Under the pieces are notes generated by a model. It was not told where the DNA came from. It did no database searches and saw only the letters and a program-made list of their open reading frames with translations. Made by a program: the position numbers and the translations under genes. This document shows, one piece after another, positions 1-5,521 of a stretch of DNA of 38,053 nucleotides; the stretch's first letter is position 1, and every line of letters begins with the position of its first letter. Source of the DNA: an uncultured Planctomycetaceae bacterium (GTDB taxonomy: Bacteria; Planctomycetota; Planctomycetia; Gemmatales; Gemmataceae); the NCBI GenBank assembly GCA_903912515.1, contig CAIWHS010000046.1:1-38053 (forward strand). The letters run 5' to 3'.

Positions 1-198
1 ACTCACTTGGGCTTATCTTCAAAGGATGTTTTATCTGGTGCAAACTGGCTAACAACCCGATATTTTGCCGAATGGAATGCCCAAAATCTCACCACCACAC
101 AGGCTGGAATAAACCTTGCTAAATTAGTGGTTGAAGACGCGGAAATTGGCCATTTCAATCAGCTTTTCCAAACTCAACGCCCAGCATCGCTCATGTAA
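1..198 (+). CDS. Possible 3' end of an upstream plus-strand gene (partial, product unknown)
   Basis: The frame THLGLSSKDVLSGANWLTTRYFAEWNAQNLTTTQAGINLAKLVVEDAEIGHF... is open from the window edge to TAA at 196-198. Composition is protein-like. It overlaps the convergent toroid gene end by 25 nt. Confidence 0.35.
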   Translation, partial: THLGLSSKDVLSGANWLTTRYFAEWNAQNLTTTQAGINLAKLVVEDAEIGHFNQLFQTQRPASLM

Positions 199-1739
199 AG
201 TGGCAGGTGCCTGTAATAAACTTCCAAGGTCAAAAGGGCCAAGGAAGTCGTCATCAACCTGCCCCCTTCCTTCACTCCATGAGAATTGCCTTCCGGATTC
301 CAGCTTCCAGCCATACCGACTGGAGCACCTTTTGCCGACTTGGGCCCGCCAACCTGTTTATCAATCAGATAATCGCGAATCCCGCCACGCCCGTTGCGAT
401 TTGGGCCAAGGTTCCAAATATCCCAGCATTCATCCTGCTGCCCCATATGATGCATGGCTTGCGTTGCATAATATAGGTAGTAAATGTCACTATTTTTCGA
501 TGGTGAATTTTCAATGATTATCTTGGCCCCCTTCCGCAAGGCCTCATTATTTGGGCGTGTCCCAAGGTAAAGCCGGCATAACATTCCCGCTGCTGTCATC
601 GCAGGAGAGGTACCCTTGCCATCCTGATAACCGTAGCCCCCGTTTGCTTTGTCTAAACATTGGTCCAAAAAATGCTCAACCAGCTTATATCGCTCCGCTG
701 GCACACGTACGCCGGCCATTTGTGCGCTTTTCAGGGCCATGAACATCCAACCTGTGACTGACATATCCCCTTCTTGCTTGGGGGTGTACCGCCAGCCTCC
801 ACCTTTGGGATCCTGAAATTCGATCACATAAGATATGGCCCTTTGGGCTGAAGCTCTCAATTGGGGGTCACCGGTTAAACCGCAAGCCTCGCAAACCGCA
901 ATGGTTGCCAATGAATGAGCGTAGGCGTTCTCGTTGAACGCCCCAGACCGCTTATTCTGGTTCAGCATCAGAAAATTCAGCGCACGCTGCACCACAGCCG
1001 AGTGGTCCACCCGGGCCTTGCGGCCCCCGTCCATGGCCTCCTCAACCTTCTCGCTATTGGGTCGATGGGTTATTCCTGCTGCCAAAAACGGCAATACACC
1101 CAGTGCCGCGCCTGCCACATCGTTTTTAGTATTTCCCTGTAACTTGTCTATCGACCAAGAGCCATCCTTGTTCTGCGTGCCAGCAAGCCAACGCAACCCT
1201 CGCGCTACAGCGGCCTCGGATACCTCGCTGCCGCCCCCTTGGGTTAACGCCACCTTCTTGCCACCGCCAGATCGACCAACAATCCCCCCCGCGCTTTGAA
1301 CTCCTCCCAACCCGGCGGATTTGTCCGCCCCCAAGGCGTTACCGATGTCGCCCATCGCCTCAGGGCCCTGAAAAACCCCGGCCTCTAAGCCGGGCGGCGG
1401 CGGAATTGATGCATCATTCAATACCGTGGGAGCTTCATTCATTGTCCCTGTTGGTTCATTTTCCTTCAACGGGGCTACAACATCGTCCTTCATTTCCTCA
1501 GGCATGGGGTCCATGCCACCGATTTCTTTATCAGGATCGCCTACATCCTCAAAAAAGTCTGTCTTTTTTTCTTCAATTTTTTGGGCCACAGTCGCCTCAA
1601 GCCCAAGGTTCCCTACTTGATCCTCAGGAATGGGGCTGGGAACCAGGATTAAAATTGACAACAAAAACCCATGCATAACCAAGCTAACGCACCCGGCAAT
1701 TGCGGCTGGAAGGTAATGGTTTTGCATGTTAGGTGTCAC
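174..1739 (-). CDS. N-terminally anchored prenyltransferase/squalene-oxidase-repeat (alpha/alpha toroid) protein with TonB-like TM segment
   Basis: 521 aa. Start is GTG at 1739 or ATG at 1727. N-terminal TM AAIAGCVSLVMHGFLLSILILVP, acidic/proline-containing linker, then repeats such as GLRWLAGTQNKDGSWSIDK, ALNFLMLNQNKRSGAFNE, AISYVIEFQDPKGGGWRYTP and CLDKANGGYGYQDGKGTSPAMTAAG. Confidence 0.85.
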   Translation of the reverse strand: MTPNMQNHYLPAAIAGCVSLVMHGFLLSILILVPSPIPEDQVGNLGLEATVAQKIEEKKTDFFEDVGDPDKEIGGMDPMPEEMKDDVVAPLKENEPTGTMNEAPTVLNDASIPPPPGLEAGVFQGPEAMGDIGNALGADKSAGLGGVQSAGGIVGRSGGGKKVALTQGGGSEVSEAAVARGLRWLAGTQNKDGSWSIDKLQGNTKNDVAGAALGVLPFLAAGITHRPNSEKVEEAMDGGRKARVDHSAVVQRALNFLMLNQNKRSGAFNENAYAHSLATIAVCEACGLTGDPQLRASAQRAISYVIEFQDPKGGGWRYTPKQEGDMSVTGWMFMALKSAQMAGVRVPAERYKLVEHFLDQCLDKANGGYGYQDGKGTSPAMTAAGMLCRLYLGTRPNNEALRKGAKIIIENSPSKNSDIYYLYYATQAMHHMGQQDECWDIWNLGPNRNGRGGIRDYLIDKQVGGPKSAKGAPVGMAGSWNPEGNSHGVKEGGRLMTTSLALLTLEVYYRHLPLYMSDAGR

Positions 1740-1850
1740 CCAATTTGCTCGGTTTCAACCTTCTGACATTTAGGACACAGCTCGGGGAAGCTGTTGTTTA
1801 ATTCTAACCTCAATTCATTCAGCAGGAAAACGATGTTCCTTTTCCCCATG
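1736..1850 (-). CDS. Possible CPxC microprotein between the membrane protein and the toroid gene
   Basis: ATG at 1850 gives MGKRNIVFLLNELRLELNNSFPELCPKCQKVETEQIG. It overlaps the end of the upstream gene, and its TGA overlaps the GTG start of the toroid gene (GTGA). Confidence 0.3.
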
Positions 1851-3002
1851 ATTAAAACCCTTGCCAGTTCGGCCCGAAATGGCCTTAAAATCCTGCAAAT
1901 CGCCGTCCAAGTTCCCCAAATCAGTCCCTTCAAACCGGTGCTGTCTTCTTACTTTTTCCAGCCGTGCGCGCACGCGCTTGTCGCTCGAACCCATCCACCA
2001 AGTCATTCCCCAAACCAAAGCCAAAGCCAAGGCAAAACATCCTAAAATAATTGACAGCAAATCCCGTGGCCAAGTCCCCATATCAGCCAATGGCTTGGGA
2101 GGCTCAACTAGCCCCACCAATTCAGGACCAACCAAAAGGGGGCATTCCCTCTCCACCGGTTTACCCCCAACAGTTTTTGCCGCCTGGTACCGATAGGCTT
2201 TCAGAAAATACCCGGAAAAACGAACAGGGCGCTGCAAATTCTCCGCAGGTGCCAAATTTCCCCCCAATCTGGCCGTGATAACACAAACAGGGTTGGCACC
2301 GTAAAGGTCCTGAAAAACCCAAGATTCATAAAGCTCTCCAACCCCTTGCTTCACGGCTTCTGGCAAAGGCTCCAGCTTGCGAATACGCCGAACAACTCCT
2401 TCCCCACGCACAACCTGCCCTCGCAATCGGGCCGGACGGTTCATCAGGTCCCCGCGATGCATGTTTGTGTTGGCACCTCCAGCTTGCCAAAAGGCATCAA
2501 AATCAACGCGCCCTGCTTGAACAACCGCCTGCAAATAGGCACCGTAATCCGCTTCTCCAATTGGCTCCCGGTCGCGCACTTGGTCCAGTAAAAAATCACC
2601 TAACGGCATAACCCGCCCAGGATCAACAATCTGATACACCCCATATTGGTGGCCCAAATCCAAAAAACTGAGACAAGACAATAACGCTCCGTCGCCAATC
2701 GCCACTTGGGCTGCCGCTTGACCATGAACTGAGCCCAATAATATAGGCGAAACCAAACCGGGCGGGGCTTGAAGGTGCCAAACTGAAAAACCGTTTTCCC
2801 CACCCGAGGCTAATAAATTTAGTGAGCCAATTGCCCCAATCCGCCCTTCCCCAAAAGGGGCGGCAAGCAACAAGCTGGCCAGATGGCAAGGCTCGGGCCG
2901 AACCAGCCCTTCCTGCACACGGGCAACTGGATTTGCAAACACAAAGAATGGCAAAAGGAGAATAAAAAACAAGAACAGGCCCTGTTTGACGGCTTTCGCC
3001 AT
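1815..3002 (-). CDS. Hypothetical membrane-anchored protein (signal/TM at N-terminus, TM near C-terminus) of the Exb gene string
   Basis: ORF with likely start MAKAVKQGLFLFFILLLPFFVFANPVARVQEG at 3002, 1 nt after the upstream ExbD stop. C-terminal TM DLLSIILGCFALALALVWGMTWWMG. Confidence 0.75.
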   Translation of the reverse strand: MAKAVKQGLFLFFILLLPFFVFANPVARVQEGLVRPEPCHLASLLLAAPFGEGRIGAIGSLNLLASGGENGFSVWHLQAPPGLVSPILLGSVHGQAAAQVAIGDGALLSCLSFLDLGHQYGVYQIVDPGRVMPLGDFLLDQVRDREPIGEADYGAYLQAVVQAGRVDFDAFWQAGGANTNMHRGDLMNRPARLRGQVVRGEGVVRRIRKLEPLPEAVKQGVGELYESWVFQDLYGANPVCVITARLGGNLAPAENLQRPVRFSGYFLKAYRYQAAKTVGGKPVERECPLLVGPELVGLVEPPKPLADMGTWPRDLLSIILGCFALALALVWGMTWWMGSSDKRVRARLEKVRRQHRFEGTDLGNLDGDLQDFKAISGRTGKGFNHGEKEHRFPAE

Positions 3003-3003
3003 T

Positions 3004-3897
3004 TCACCGCCCTGCCTGATCAATTGGTTTTTGAAGGGCAATAACTGCTTTGCTAGGATCATCCGCTACCCGGTGGGCAGTAGCCCGGCAGGCATCAATG
3101 ACCAAAACCACCATCTCCCACTTGATTCCCGATGATGCCTGTAGCTTAATATTGATCCCCGCCCGACTTTTCGCTGCAGTTTTATCGTCACCAAAATGTG
3201 CCAAGAATGGGAGATTTAATTTGGCAACTAATTCCCTGTTAATCAAGTCACCCACTTTGGCATGATTACGCAAGTCCTCTTCAGGAATCACCAAGCTATC
3301 CCCTGCGCCTGAACCACTAATTTCTACCCGGCGAAGGTCACCATCCTCATTCGAGCGCAAAACCAAAGTTAAATTGGCTTCAAACTTGGGCGGGGTATCA
3401 CCTGCAGGAGGTGGCTCCTTACTTTGAGTGGCCGTTTGCTTATCGTCGGTTGGTGGCAAACTGAACGGGATCTCTGTCTCTTCGCCAGATGGAGACCGAA
3501 ATGTCATGATGAAAAAAAACAACAGTTGAAAAGTCATATCAAGCATAGGCGTGATCGGGATCACCGGATCGGGTAAGGAAGGTATCACCGCCCGGTGCTT
3601 CCTTTTTGCAAAATGGCCGTCACCAGCGAAATTGGTCCAGTCATTTTTGTTGGAAATACCACCCGCCGCAGCTTCCACAGGCACCGCAACCGAACCGGAA
3701 GAAACCTGCGCTGCAGGAGTTGCAACTGCCGCCACTACTTGGTTTTGCGGTGTTTCTCCCAAAGATTCAATCGTCAAAATTTCCAAACCACGTTGCTCTG
3801 CCAAGGCCCGAACTGCATCAGGGGAGTCGCCATCTAGAAAGCCCTCGATGGTGCGTCCCGAACGCGGATCAACTGCGGTGATCTTGAACCTTTCCAT
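3004..3897 (-). CDS. ExbD/TolR family protein with GspF-like N-terminal domain
   Basis: 297 aa. N-terminus MERFKITAVDPRSGRTIEGFLDGDSPDAVRALAEQRGLEILTIES. ExbD core VIPITPMLDMTFQLLFFFIMTFRSPSGEETEIPFSLP. Confidence 0.9.
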   Translation of the reverse strand: MERFKITAVDPRSGRTIEGFLDGDSPDAVRALAEQRGLEILTIESLGETPQNQVVAAVATPAAQVSSGSVAVPVEAAAGGISNKNDWTNFAGDGHFAKRKHRAVIPSLPDPVIPITPMLDMTFQLLFFFIMTFRSPSGEETEIPFSLPPTDDKQTATQSKEPPPAGDTPPKFEANLTLVLRSNEDGDLRRVEISGSGAGDSLVIPEEDLRNHAKVGDLINRELVAKLNLPFLAHFGDDKTAAKSRAGINIKLQASSGIKWEMVVLVIDACRATAHRVADDPSKAVIALQKPIDQAGR

Positions 3898-3942: not shown

Positions 3943-4623
3943 CTAGCGAGCAGCAGGTAACATCACGCCGTAATAAAGGTTAGTGAACTGGTTGCGTCTG
4001 CAAACTTCTGCCATTTGATGAACATCTTGGTATTCCACATCCTTGTCCGCCCTAATTCTTACCCGGCGCTCCACCTTCTGCCCCTTGGCATCTTTGGGTA
4101 AATCCTGCTGGGTCACCCGCAACCAATTCCCCACATCGACAAACCGATCCGGGTTAGGCCTTCTGCCTACCCCCTTGCGCAAGGTCATGGGATTAGGCTC
4201 GGTCAAAGTGACTACCATCGATTCGCCAGGTTTAAAATTGGCATCGGCCAACATCACTTGGCTACCGTCCTCCTTGAAAAGATTAAACAACCTCTCCGCG
4301 CGAAAATACCTTCCATCACCCAAAGTGGCTCGCAGCTCGCCCAATTCCTTTTCAGTTTTTTTCACCCATCGCCCACCGCTTTGGCTGAAAAACTGCTTCA
4401 CCGTACCGTCCCAGCCAATCAGGTTCAGAACAATCGGTTGGTCTGCGGTTTTGGAAGCGGGACGGGCCTCTTGGTTGACCGGAACCTGAATCTCCTGCTT
4501 GACCTGATCGGTGACAAAACGCACACAGATGATGAAAAACATGAGTAATTGCATCACCAAATCAAGTAACGGAGTCAGGTTGGGTTCTGCCACATCATTG
4601 CCACCACCCGAACCGGCGCTCAT
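3943..4623 (-). CDS. ExbD/TolR family protein
   Basis: MSAGSGGGNDVAEPNLTPLLDLVMQLLMFFIICVRFVTDQVKQEIQVP. GGAGAG ribosome-binding site upstream of ATG at 4623. Confidence 0.9.
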   Translation of the reverse strand: MSAGSGGGNDVAEPNLTPLLDLVMQLLMFFIICVRFVTDQVKQEIQVPVNQEARPASKTADQPIVLNLIGWDGTVKQFFSQSGGRWVKKTEKELGELRATLGDGRYFRAERLFNLFKEDGSQVMLADANFKPGESMVVTLTEPNPMTLRKGVGRRPNPDRFVDVGNWLRVTQQDLPKDAKGQKVERRVRIRADKDVEYQDVHQMAEVCRRNQFTNLYYGVMLPAAR

Positions 4624-4642
4624 GGCGATCTCTCCGGAAAAG

Positions 4643-5521
4643 TTAGCGGCCACTCGGGGGAATTTGACCGGAAACACCAGAAGCAGGCGTTGTGCCAGAT
4701 GCTTTGCGCATGGCGCTATATACTTGGGTAAGCAGGTCCATAGCCGTGTTGTTAACCTCCACCGTCAATTGGATCAATCGCTTGCTAAAAAAAGTGAAAA
4801 AGAAAATGGCTGGAACCGCCACGCCCACACCCATGAGTGTCACTACCAAGGCATGGGAAATATCACCCGCCAAAGACTTCGTGTCGACATTTCCAGAACT
4901 AGTACCCAATTTTTGAAAGCTATTGATCATCCCATAAACGGTACCGACAAGTCCTAAAAGCGGGCCCAACTGCCCTATAACTGCCATGAAAGAAATGATC
5001 AATTCTTTGCCAGCCCTGAACTCCTCAACTTTTCGGCTCATCGCCTCCGATGCTTCATCCAGTCCGTACTGCAATTTTGGCAAACCAGCCGATAGCGCCC
5101 TGGCCAAAAGGGATGGATTCTCAGCCAAAAGGGCCTGCGCTTGGCTAAACTGCCGCGCATTTACCTGCTTGGAAAACTCCTCAACCAATTCGGCCGGAGT
5201 CGCCGCGCTAAGTCGCAACTCCATTAAAAGAAATACCGACAAAGCCACCATGCTGATGGAAATCACCCCCATCAACAAACTCCAACCCACCCCAGCCGAT
5301 TCAAAGGCGTGAGCTATGAAACTCTTCGAAGATTTGTCGCCCCCATCTGCGGGAGCGGATATTTCGGGTGTGCTGGCATCCTGAGCATGCACCTGGCTCA
5401 CCAGAGGATCAACGGTCAAAAGGGCCAGAATGGCTAAGAGCGGACAAAAAACAAAAAGCCTAACAAATTTCCCGCTAAAAAAACTCCATCCGCCCTTCTG
5501 TTCGCAGGATAGCATCATCAT
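4643..5521 (-). CDS. MotA/TolQ/ExbB proton channel family protein
   Basis: 292 aa. N-terminal signal/TM segment, then GVISISMVALSVFLLMELRL ... FMAVIGQLGPLLGLVGTVYGMINSFQKLG ... ISHALVVTLMGVGVAVPAIFFFTFF. Confidence 0.93.
   Translation of the reverse strand: MMMLSCEQKGGWSFFSGKFVRLFVFCPLLAILALLTVDPLVSQVHAQDASTPEISAPADGGDKSSKSFIAHAFESAGVGWSLLMGVISISMVALSVFLLMELRLSAATPAELVEEFSKQVNARQFSQAQALLAENPSLLARALSAGLPKLQYGLDEASEAMSRKVEEFRAGKELIISFMAVIGQLGPLLGLVGTVYGMINSFQKLGTSSGNVDTKSLAGDISHALVVTLMGVGVAVPAIFFFTFFSKRLIQLTVEVNNTAMDLLTQVYSAMRKASGTTPASGVSGQIPPSGR

Follow-up and report, generated by a model that had tools for sequence, protein, structure and literature searches.

The window, a stretch of 38,053 nucleotides of planctomycete DNA, carries a minus-strand operon in the order exbB-exbD1-exbD2-P415-toroid, in which the gene of the toroid protein comes last and the reading frames of ExbB and ExbD1 and of ExbD2 and P415 overlap. 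The features of the locus are as follows.

4643..5521, minus strand: ExbB/TolQ-like motor subunit (PF01618, 2.1e-24), with the equivalents of pore residues Thr148 and Thr181 intact
5258..5260, minus strand: ExbB Ser88 (if the start is ATG 5521), aligned with E. coli ExbB Ser34
3943..4677, minus strand: ExbD1 (PF02472, 2.3e-14), with the motor Asp intact (PLLDLVM); the true start may lie inside
3004..3897, minus strand: ExbD2 (PF02472, 2.8e-7), with an N-terminal extension of ~100 residues and the motor Asp intact (PMLDMTF)
1815..3062, minus strand: P415, a conserved operon partner with a predicted N-terminal hydrophobic segment, OB-like beta domain and long C-terminal transmembrane (TM) helix (AlphaFold2)
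174..1727, minus strand: coding sequence of the toroid protein, 517 aa from ATG 1727 (open reading frame, PF13243, orthologue-supported start)
1644..1715, minus strand: N-terminal TM helix, residues 5-28, with a TonB-like S-x3-H core (AlphaFold2; family TM columns)
1683..1685, minus strand: Ser15, equivalent of TonB Ser16 and TolA Ser18 (Ser in every row of the 20-row alignment A1 and in 74/85 TMs aligned without seeding)
1671..1673, minus strand: His19, equivalent of TonB His20 and TolA His22 (His in 129 and Asn in 21 of the 150 motif-bearing anchors)
1668..1670, minus strand: Gly20 of the toroid protein
1269..1628, minus strand: disordered periplasmic linker, residues 34-153 (pLDDT below 50, AlphaFold2)
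210..1268, minus strand: alpha/alpha-toroid domain spanning residues 154-506, where TonB has its C-terminal domain (AlphaFold2, high confidence; Foldseek)

The N-terminal sequence of the 517-residue toroid protein, read on the minus strand from ATG 1727, is MQNHYLPAAIAGCVSLVMHGFLLSILILVPSPIPE. An alternative upstream start, GTG 1739, would add four residues; ATG 1727 is the better choice because the N-terminus of the nearest orthologue, from the same genus (L031), matches there (MQTNYLPAM, compared with MQNHYLPAA in the window) and the similarity between the two proteins stops short of GTG 1739. A single TM helix is predicted at residues 5-28, with a pLDDT of ~92 in the block 11-20 (AlphaFold2, 20-row alignment), and the model runs from this helix through a disordered linker to a globular domain in the periplasm, as in transducers. 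The original prediction placed Ser15 and His19 nearly at the numbering of Ser16 and His20 of E. coli TonB, and both the peptide and its coordinates are correct from ATG 1727. It also drew attention to a Gly following the His and to a proline- and acid-containing linker behind the TM; both are present in the window, but the Gly is incidental in the family (14/150) and such a linker is generic.

The toroid domain is cyclase-like by fold yet, by its catalytic motif, no class II terpene cyclase: the DxDD of those enzymes is missing (absent from 20/20 members of A1). Among solved structures, Foldseek matches it best to squalene-hopene cyclases (8paj, target-normalised TM-score 0.63), followed by AprG, GH76 mannanases and C5/C4 thioester domains, and Pfam finds a SQHop_cyclase_C match in the protein (PF13243, 1.9e-7, 30.9 bits against a cut-off of 26.1). 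Many residues of the domain are invariant in A1, and a [GSA]DxS[VI]xxW motif is invariant in all 20 members. Pfam detected neither TonB_C nor a von Willebrand factor A (vWA) domain in the protein and returned toroid families alone.

Among the accompanying genes, the first ~85 residues of ExbD2 form an N-terminal extension (FKITAVDPRSGRTIEGFLDGDSPDAVRALAEQRGLEILTI) in which Pfam gave no match, and which we take to resemble the N-terminal part of the GspF/PilC proteins of type II secretion. P415 likewise belongs to no Pfam family, its OB-fold-like matches all have E values above 0.001, and its C-terminus is predicted to be a 47-residue helix with a basic tail. P415 adjoins exb genes or the toroid gene in many relatives, and the entire exbB-exbD1-exbD2-P415-toroid operon recurs in many Gemmatales genera. 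Where the operon is split, P415 lies next to exb (G019-G023) or next to the toroid gene (G024, G025), and in G004, G006, G009 and G018 the ExbB-ExbD1-ExbD2 set is located apart from P415 and the toroid gene.

The conservation of the anchor was examined in toroids from 31 relatives, 80 named genome contigs and 102 genomes searched at the level of the order; the 163 non-redundant toroids were divided into 71 that are exb-linked (exb genes within 6 kb) and 92 that are unlinked. When 85 unique TMs were aligned without gaps, from random starting positions and with no seeding on S or H, the two most informative columns lay four residues apart and held Ser (74/85) and His (58), Asn (14) or Cys (5); the original prediction had proposed to test, by aligning the N-terminal TMs of orthologues, whether S and H are the most conserved positions. 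With these two columns masked, nearly all TMs kept their register, the window's and a few others being shifted by four or more residues, and TMs misplaced in the masked alignment were assigned by inspection with the help of the S-x3-[HN] rule. The motif is present in 150 of the 163 toroids (129 S-x3-H, 21 S-x3-N), with the caveat, here and in the counts that follow, that the sequences are related and the counts not independent. The exb-linked toroids comprise 65 with S-x3-H, five with S-x3-N and a single one without the motif (L138), which has a broken reading frame and a neighbouring frame that still encodes IVVSLLLHLL. The original prediction had staked itself on S and H being kept in orthologues that keep exb linkage, and this is what the linked toroids show. 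The unlinked toroids comprise 64 with S-x3-H, 16 with S-x3-N and 12 with neither; apart from L138, all motif-less toroids are unlinked, and the N-termini of these 12 include lipoprotein-like, secreted and G-x3-C types. As a side observation, the toroids L116, L117 and L160, located away from exb, carry lipoprotein-like signal sequences in place of the TonB-like anchor and constitute a natural control group without a motor. For comparison, S-x3-H occurs in 2/274 N-terminal TMs of other, exb-distant genes at the same loci, and near other exb genes a single S-x3-H protein of TonB size was found, a genuine TonB (TonB_C, 8.7e-23).

Docking through the SHLS motif is established for TonB and TolA. 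The full motif (His-x6-Leu-x3-Ser) is not conserved in toroids, the Leu being present in 81/150 and the last Ser in 5/150 of the motif-bearing anchors; the Leu-Ser part is less well conserved in TonB too (PMC12215075). A toroid-domain tree (quick method, SH-aLRT support only) indicates at least 13 changes of anchor state. The idea, formed on 31 genomes, that Asn marks lost exb linkage was rejected, since L092-L094, L243 and L249 are linked yet carry Asn. Replacement of the His by Asn is reportedly fully tolerated by E. coli TonB, judging from what Swayne and Postle (2011) state in their title, with which the prevalence of Asn as the usual natural His replacement in toroids agrees. Several loci (L035, L043, L050, L106, L131 and L212) harbor tandem or closely spaced toroid gene pairs in which each member has its own S-x3-[HN] anchor.

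In the linker of the window's toroid, LEATVAQ at His+24 resembles the D-box, the ExbD-binding box, and the strict pattern is found once among exb-linked toroids where 1.3 occurrences are expected from shuffles, so that it is not enriched there. Separately, Gemmatales-type toroids (e.g. L106, L133, L033 and L035) share a conserved linker block like DIGxDxxLPTNYNVDR at about His+40 to His+60, which scores 20 bits per sequence where shuffles give 8-11, when kinship among the sequences is ignored, and which is a possible docking site for ExbD or P415.

In the E. coli cryo-EM structure, TonB Ser16 and His20 contact ExbB Ser34 and Trp38, which are connected to Pro190 in TM3 (PMC12215075). All 60 orthologues in the window's ExbB group outside one sister family, f2, have the equivalents of both Ser34 and Pro190; the Trp38 equivalent is not conserved in planctomycete ExbBs (V/L/I/M/T). 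Family f2 comprises seven genomes (toroids L039, L040, L046, L052, L053, L055 and L056; ExbBs L071-L077), in which ExbB-ExbD1-ExbD2 is located away from the toroid gene. Its toroids have Asn for His in 7/7 cases, and its cognate ExbBs have Ser34 changed to Tyr and Pro190 to Leu in 7/7 cases. Of the 12 ExbB columns identical in the 60 orthologues and E. coli, only Ser34 and Pro190 are altered in all of f2, and the chance of exactly this pair is 1/66 if two of the 12 columns are hit at random. When the 60 columns with at least 93% conservation are considered, six are changed in f2 and both Ser34 and Pro190 are among them, for which the chance is 30/3540. The correlated ExbB change is confined to one lineage and therefore counts as one event. 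Other lineages with Asn toroids (L092-L094, L243) retain Ser34 and Pro190, so Asn alone requires no ExbB change. In L067, a divergent exb-linked ExbB that does not belong to the group, positions 34 and 190 are Gly and Leu, and its toroid is S-x3-H. Judged from sequence, the ExbB side fits a TonB-like docking of the toroid anchor, by which the toroid may be coupled to the motor.

TonB_C was not detected in the window's genome by a profile search in which positive controls worked; the genome is 93% complete, and a TonB could therefore have been missed. Among the 31 genomes, the same domain was found in five and not in 26 (profile search with positive controls). The window's genome also harbors, on another contig (L083; contig C5, 3-5884), a vWA operon of the type described by Williams-Jones et al., which encodes a vWA protein, an ExbB, a pair of ExbDs and a long protein of repeat-like sequence; the TM of its vWA protein reads A-x3-Q where toroids have S-x3-H, and Gly takes the position of Ser34 in its ExbB.

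Because the Ser/His anchor is conserved in ~150 relatives, the toroid protein is very probably a TonB-like transducer. Alongside this conservation stand the three-part architecture, the operon, the intact motor residues, the correlated change in the ExbB docking network and the failure to detect a TonB_C protein in the window's genome, and we put at about 0.8 the probability that the protein is a TonB/TolA-like force transducer coupled to the proton motive force (pmf) with an alpha/alpha-toroid output. In the proposed mechanism, the N-terminal TM helix would dock on TM1 of the ExbB pentamer via Ser15 and His19, and the ExbB/ExbD1/ExbD2 motor, powered by the proton gradient, would act on the disordered periplasmic linker. 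Force or a conformational change would then pass to the periplasmic toroid domain, standing in for the TonB C-terminal domain, which would bind some periplasmic, cell-wall or outer-membrane partner; P415 would be a fifth, membrane-anchored component. Several observations weigh against this reading: the correlated ExbB change is a single event, other Asn lineages retain ExbB Ser34, Trp38 is not conserved, the strict D-box pattern is not enriched, 80/92 unlinked toroids keep the motif with no adjacent motor, and the window's genome offers other transducer candidates, such as its vWA operon, and may hold a TonB that was missed.

It is unlikely, though it deserves to be weighed, that the Ser/His anchor binds ExbB while the toroid is not a pulled lever but an enzyme or binding domain held at the proton channel, or sensing or gating it. 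The fold is shared with cyclases, glycosidases and thioester domains, the many invariant toroid residues are such as a ligand-binding or catalytic site would have, and it is debated whether the TM contact of TonB carries force or serves as a localiser only (PMC10907165), but the class II terpene cyclase motif is missing and the architecture of TM helix, linker and globular domain is of the transducer type. That the retention of Ser and His reflects something else than ExbB docking, for example TM dimerisation or a contact to some other inner-membrane protein such as P415, is more doubtful still and we consider it highly improbable. Such a role would suit the persistence of S-x3-H (64) and S-x3-N (16) among the 92 toroids with no adjacent exb and the presence of TMs in the conserved neighbor P415. 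It sits poorly with the several MotA/ExbB-family genes in every checked genome with unlinked toroids (5-11 per genome in eight genomes whose toroids are mostly away from exb), with a position that accepts His or Asn as TonB is said to do in the Swayne and Postle title, with the alteration in f2 of the ExbB residues of the same contact, and with the finding that the 12 motif-less toroids are all unlinked. A chance resemblance in a hydrophobic helix is excluded for practical purposes, even for a motif defined by two residues only, because S and H are the top columns of an unseeded TM alignment and S-x3-H occurs in 129/163 toroids against 2/274 background TMs, which upholds the original view that the TonB-like match is hard to dismiss.

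Beyond the window, we favor, with less assurance than the transducer assignment itself, the view that pmf-driven transducers with a cyclase-fold toroid for the TonB C-terminal domain and two unlike ExbDs are widespread in Planctomycetota, that they are a main Exb output in TonB-less Gemmatales lineages, and that the contact network was rewired in one sister family (His to Asn; ExbB Ser to Tyr and Pro to Leu). If this is true, Ton/Tol-type motors drive periplasmic outputs beyond TonB, TolA and vWA proteins in bacteria with no detectable TonB, and a testable role emerges for a large 'squalene cyclase / prenyltransferase repeat' family that annotation makes enzyme-like. The rewiring in f2 would then constitute a natural experiment on Ton coupling. 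Without recourse to E. coli mutants, the natural His to Asn replacements and the correlated ExbB Ser34/Pro190 changes are evidence from evolution that coupling takes place at the contact network observed in recent structures of TonB-ExbBD and TolA-TolQR, and that a protonatable His is dispensable there.

In common with E. coli TonB-ExbBD and TolA-TolQR (PMC12215075), the toroid system has S-x3-H in a single N-terminal TM at near-identical residue numbers, equivalents of ExbB Ser34 and Pro190, the ExbD Asp and a disordered linker; in contrast to them, it has two unlike ExbDs and an additional P415, lacks TonB_C, and keeps neither ExbB Trp38 nor the Leu and final Ser of SHLS. The C-terminal domain shares fold and sequence match with the toroids of squalene-hopene and other class II terpene cyclases (PF13243; PDB 8paj, 3sqc), from which it differs in being a single toroid domain on a TM anchor with [GSA]DxS[VI]xxW instead of DxDD. 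Open-licence papers yielded no relevant report that connects toroid or cyclase proteins with Exb/Tol, and toroid transducers are not mentioned by Williams-Jones et al. (2025, PMC12204202), who described transducers that combine SHLS with a vWA domain and are encoded next to tolQ and a pair of unlike tolR genes, Planctomycetes included. With these vWA transducers (PMC12204202) the toroid system shares an SHLS-type TM helix, a disordered linker, a globular C-terminal domain unrelated to TonB, two dissimilar ExbD/TolR genes in the motor operon and an occurrence in Planctomycetes; it differs in having an alpha/alpha toroid rather than vWA, and P415 where the vWA operons have a TPR gene. The toroid class, of which we found no earlier report in the open-licence literature, is thus of the same kind as the vWA transducers, with another output domain.
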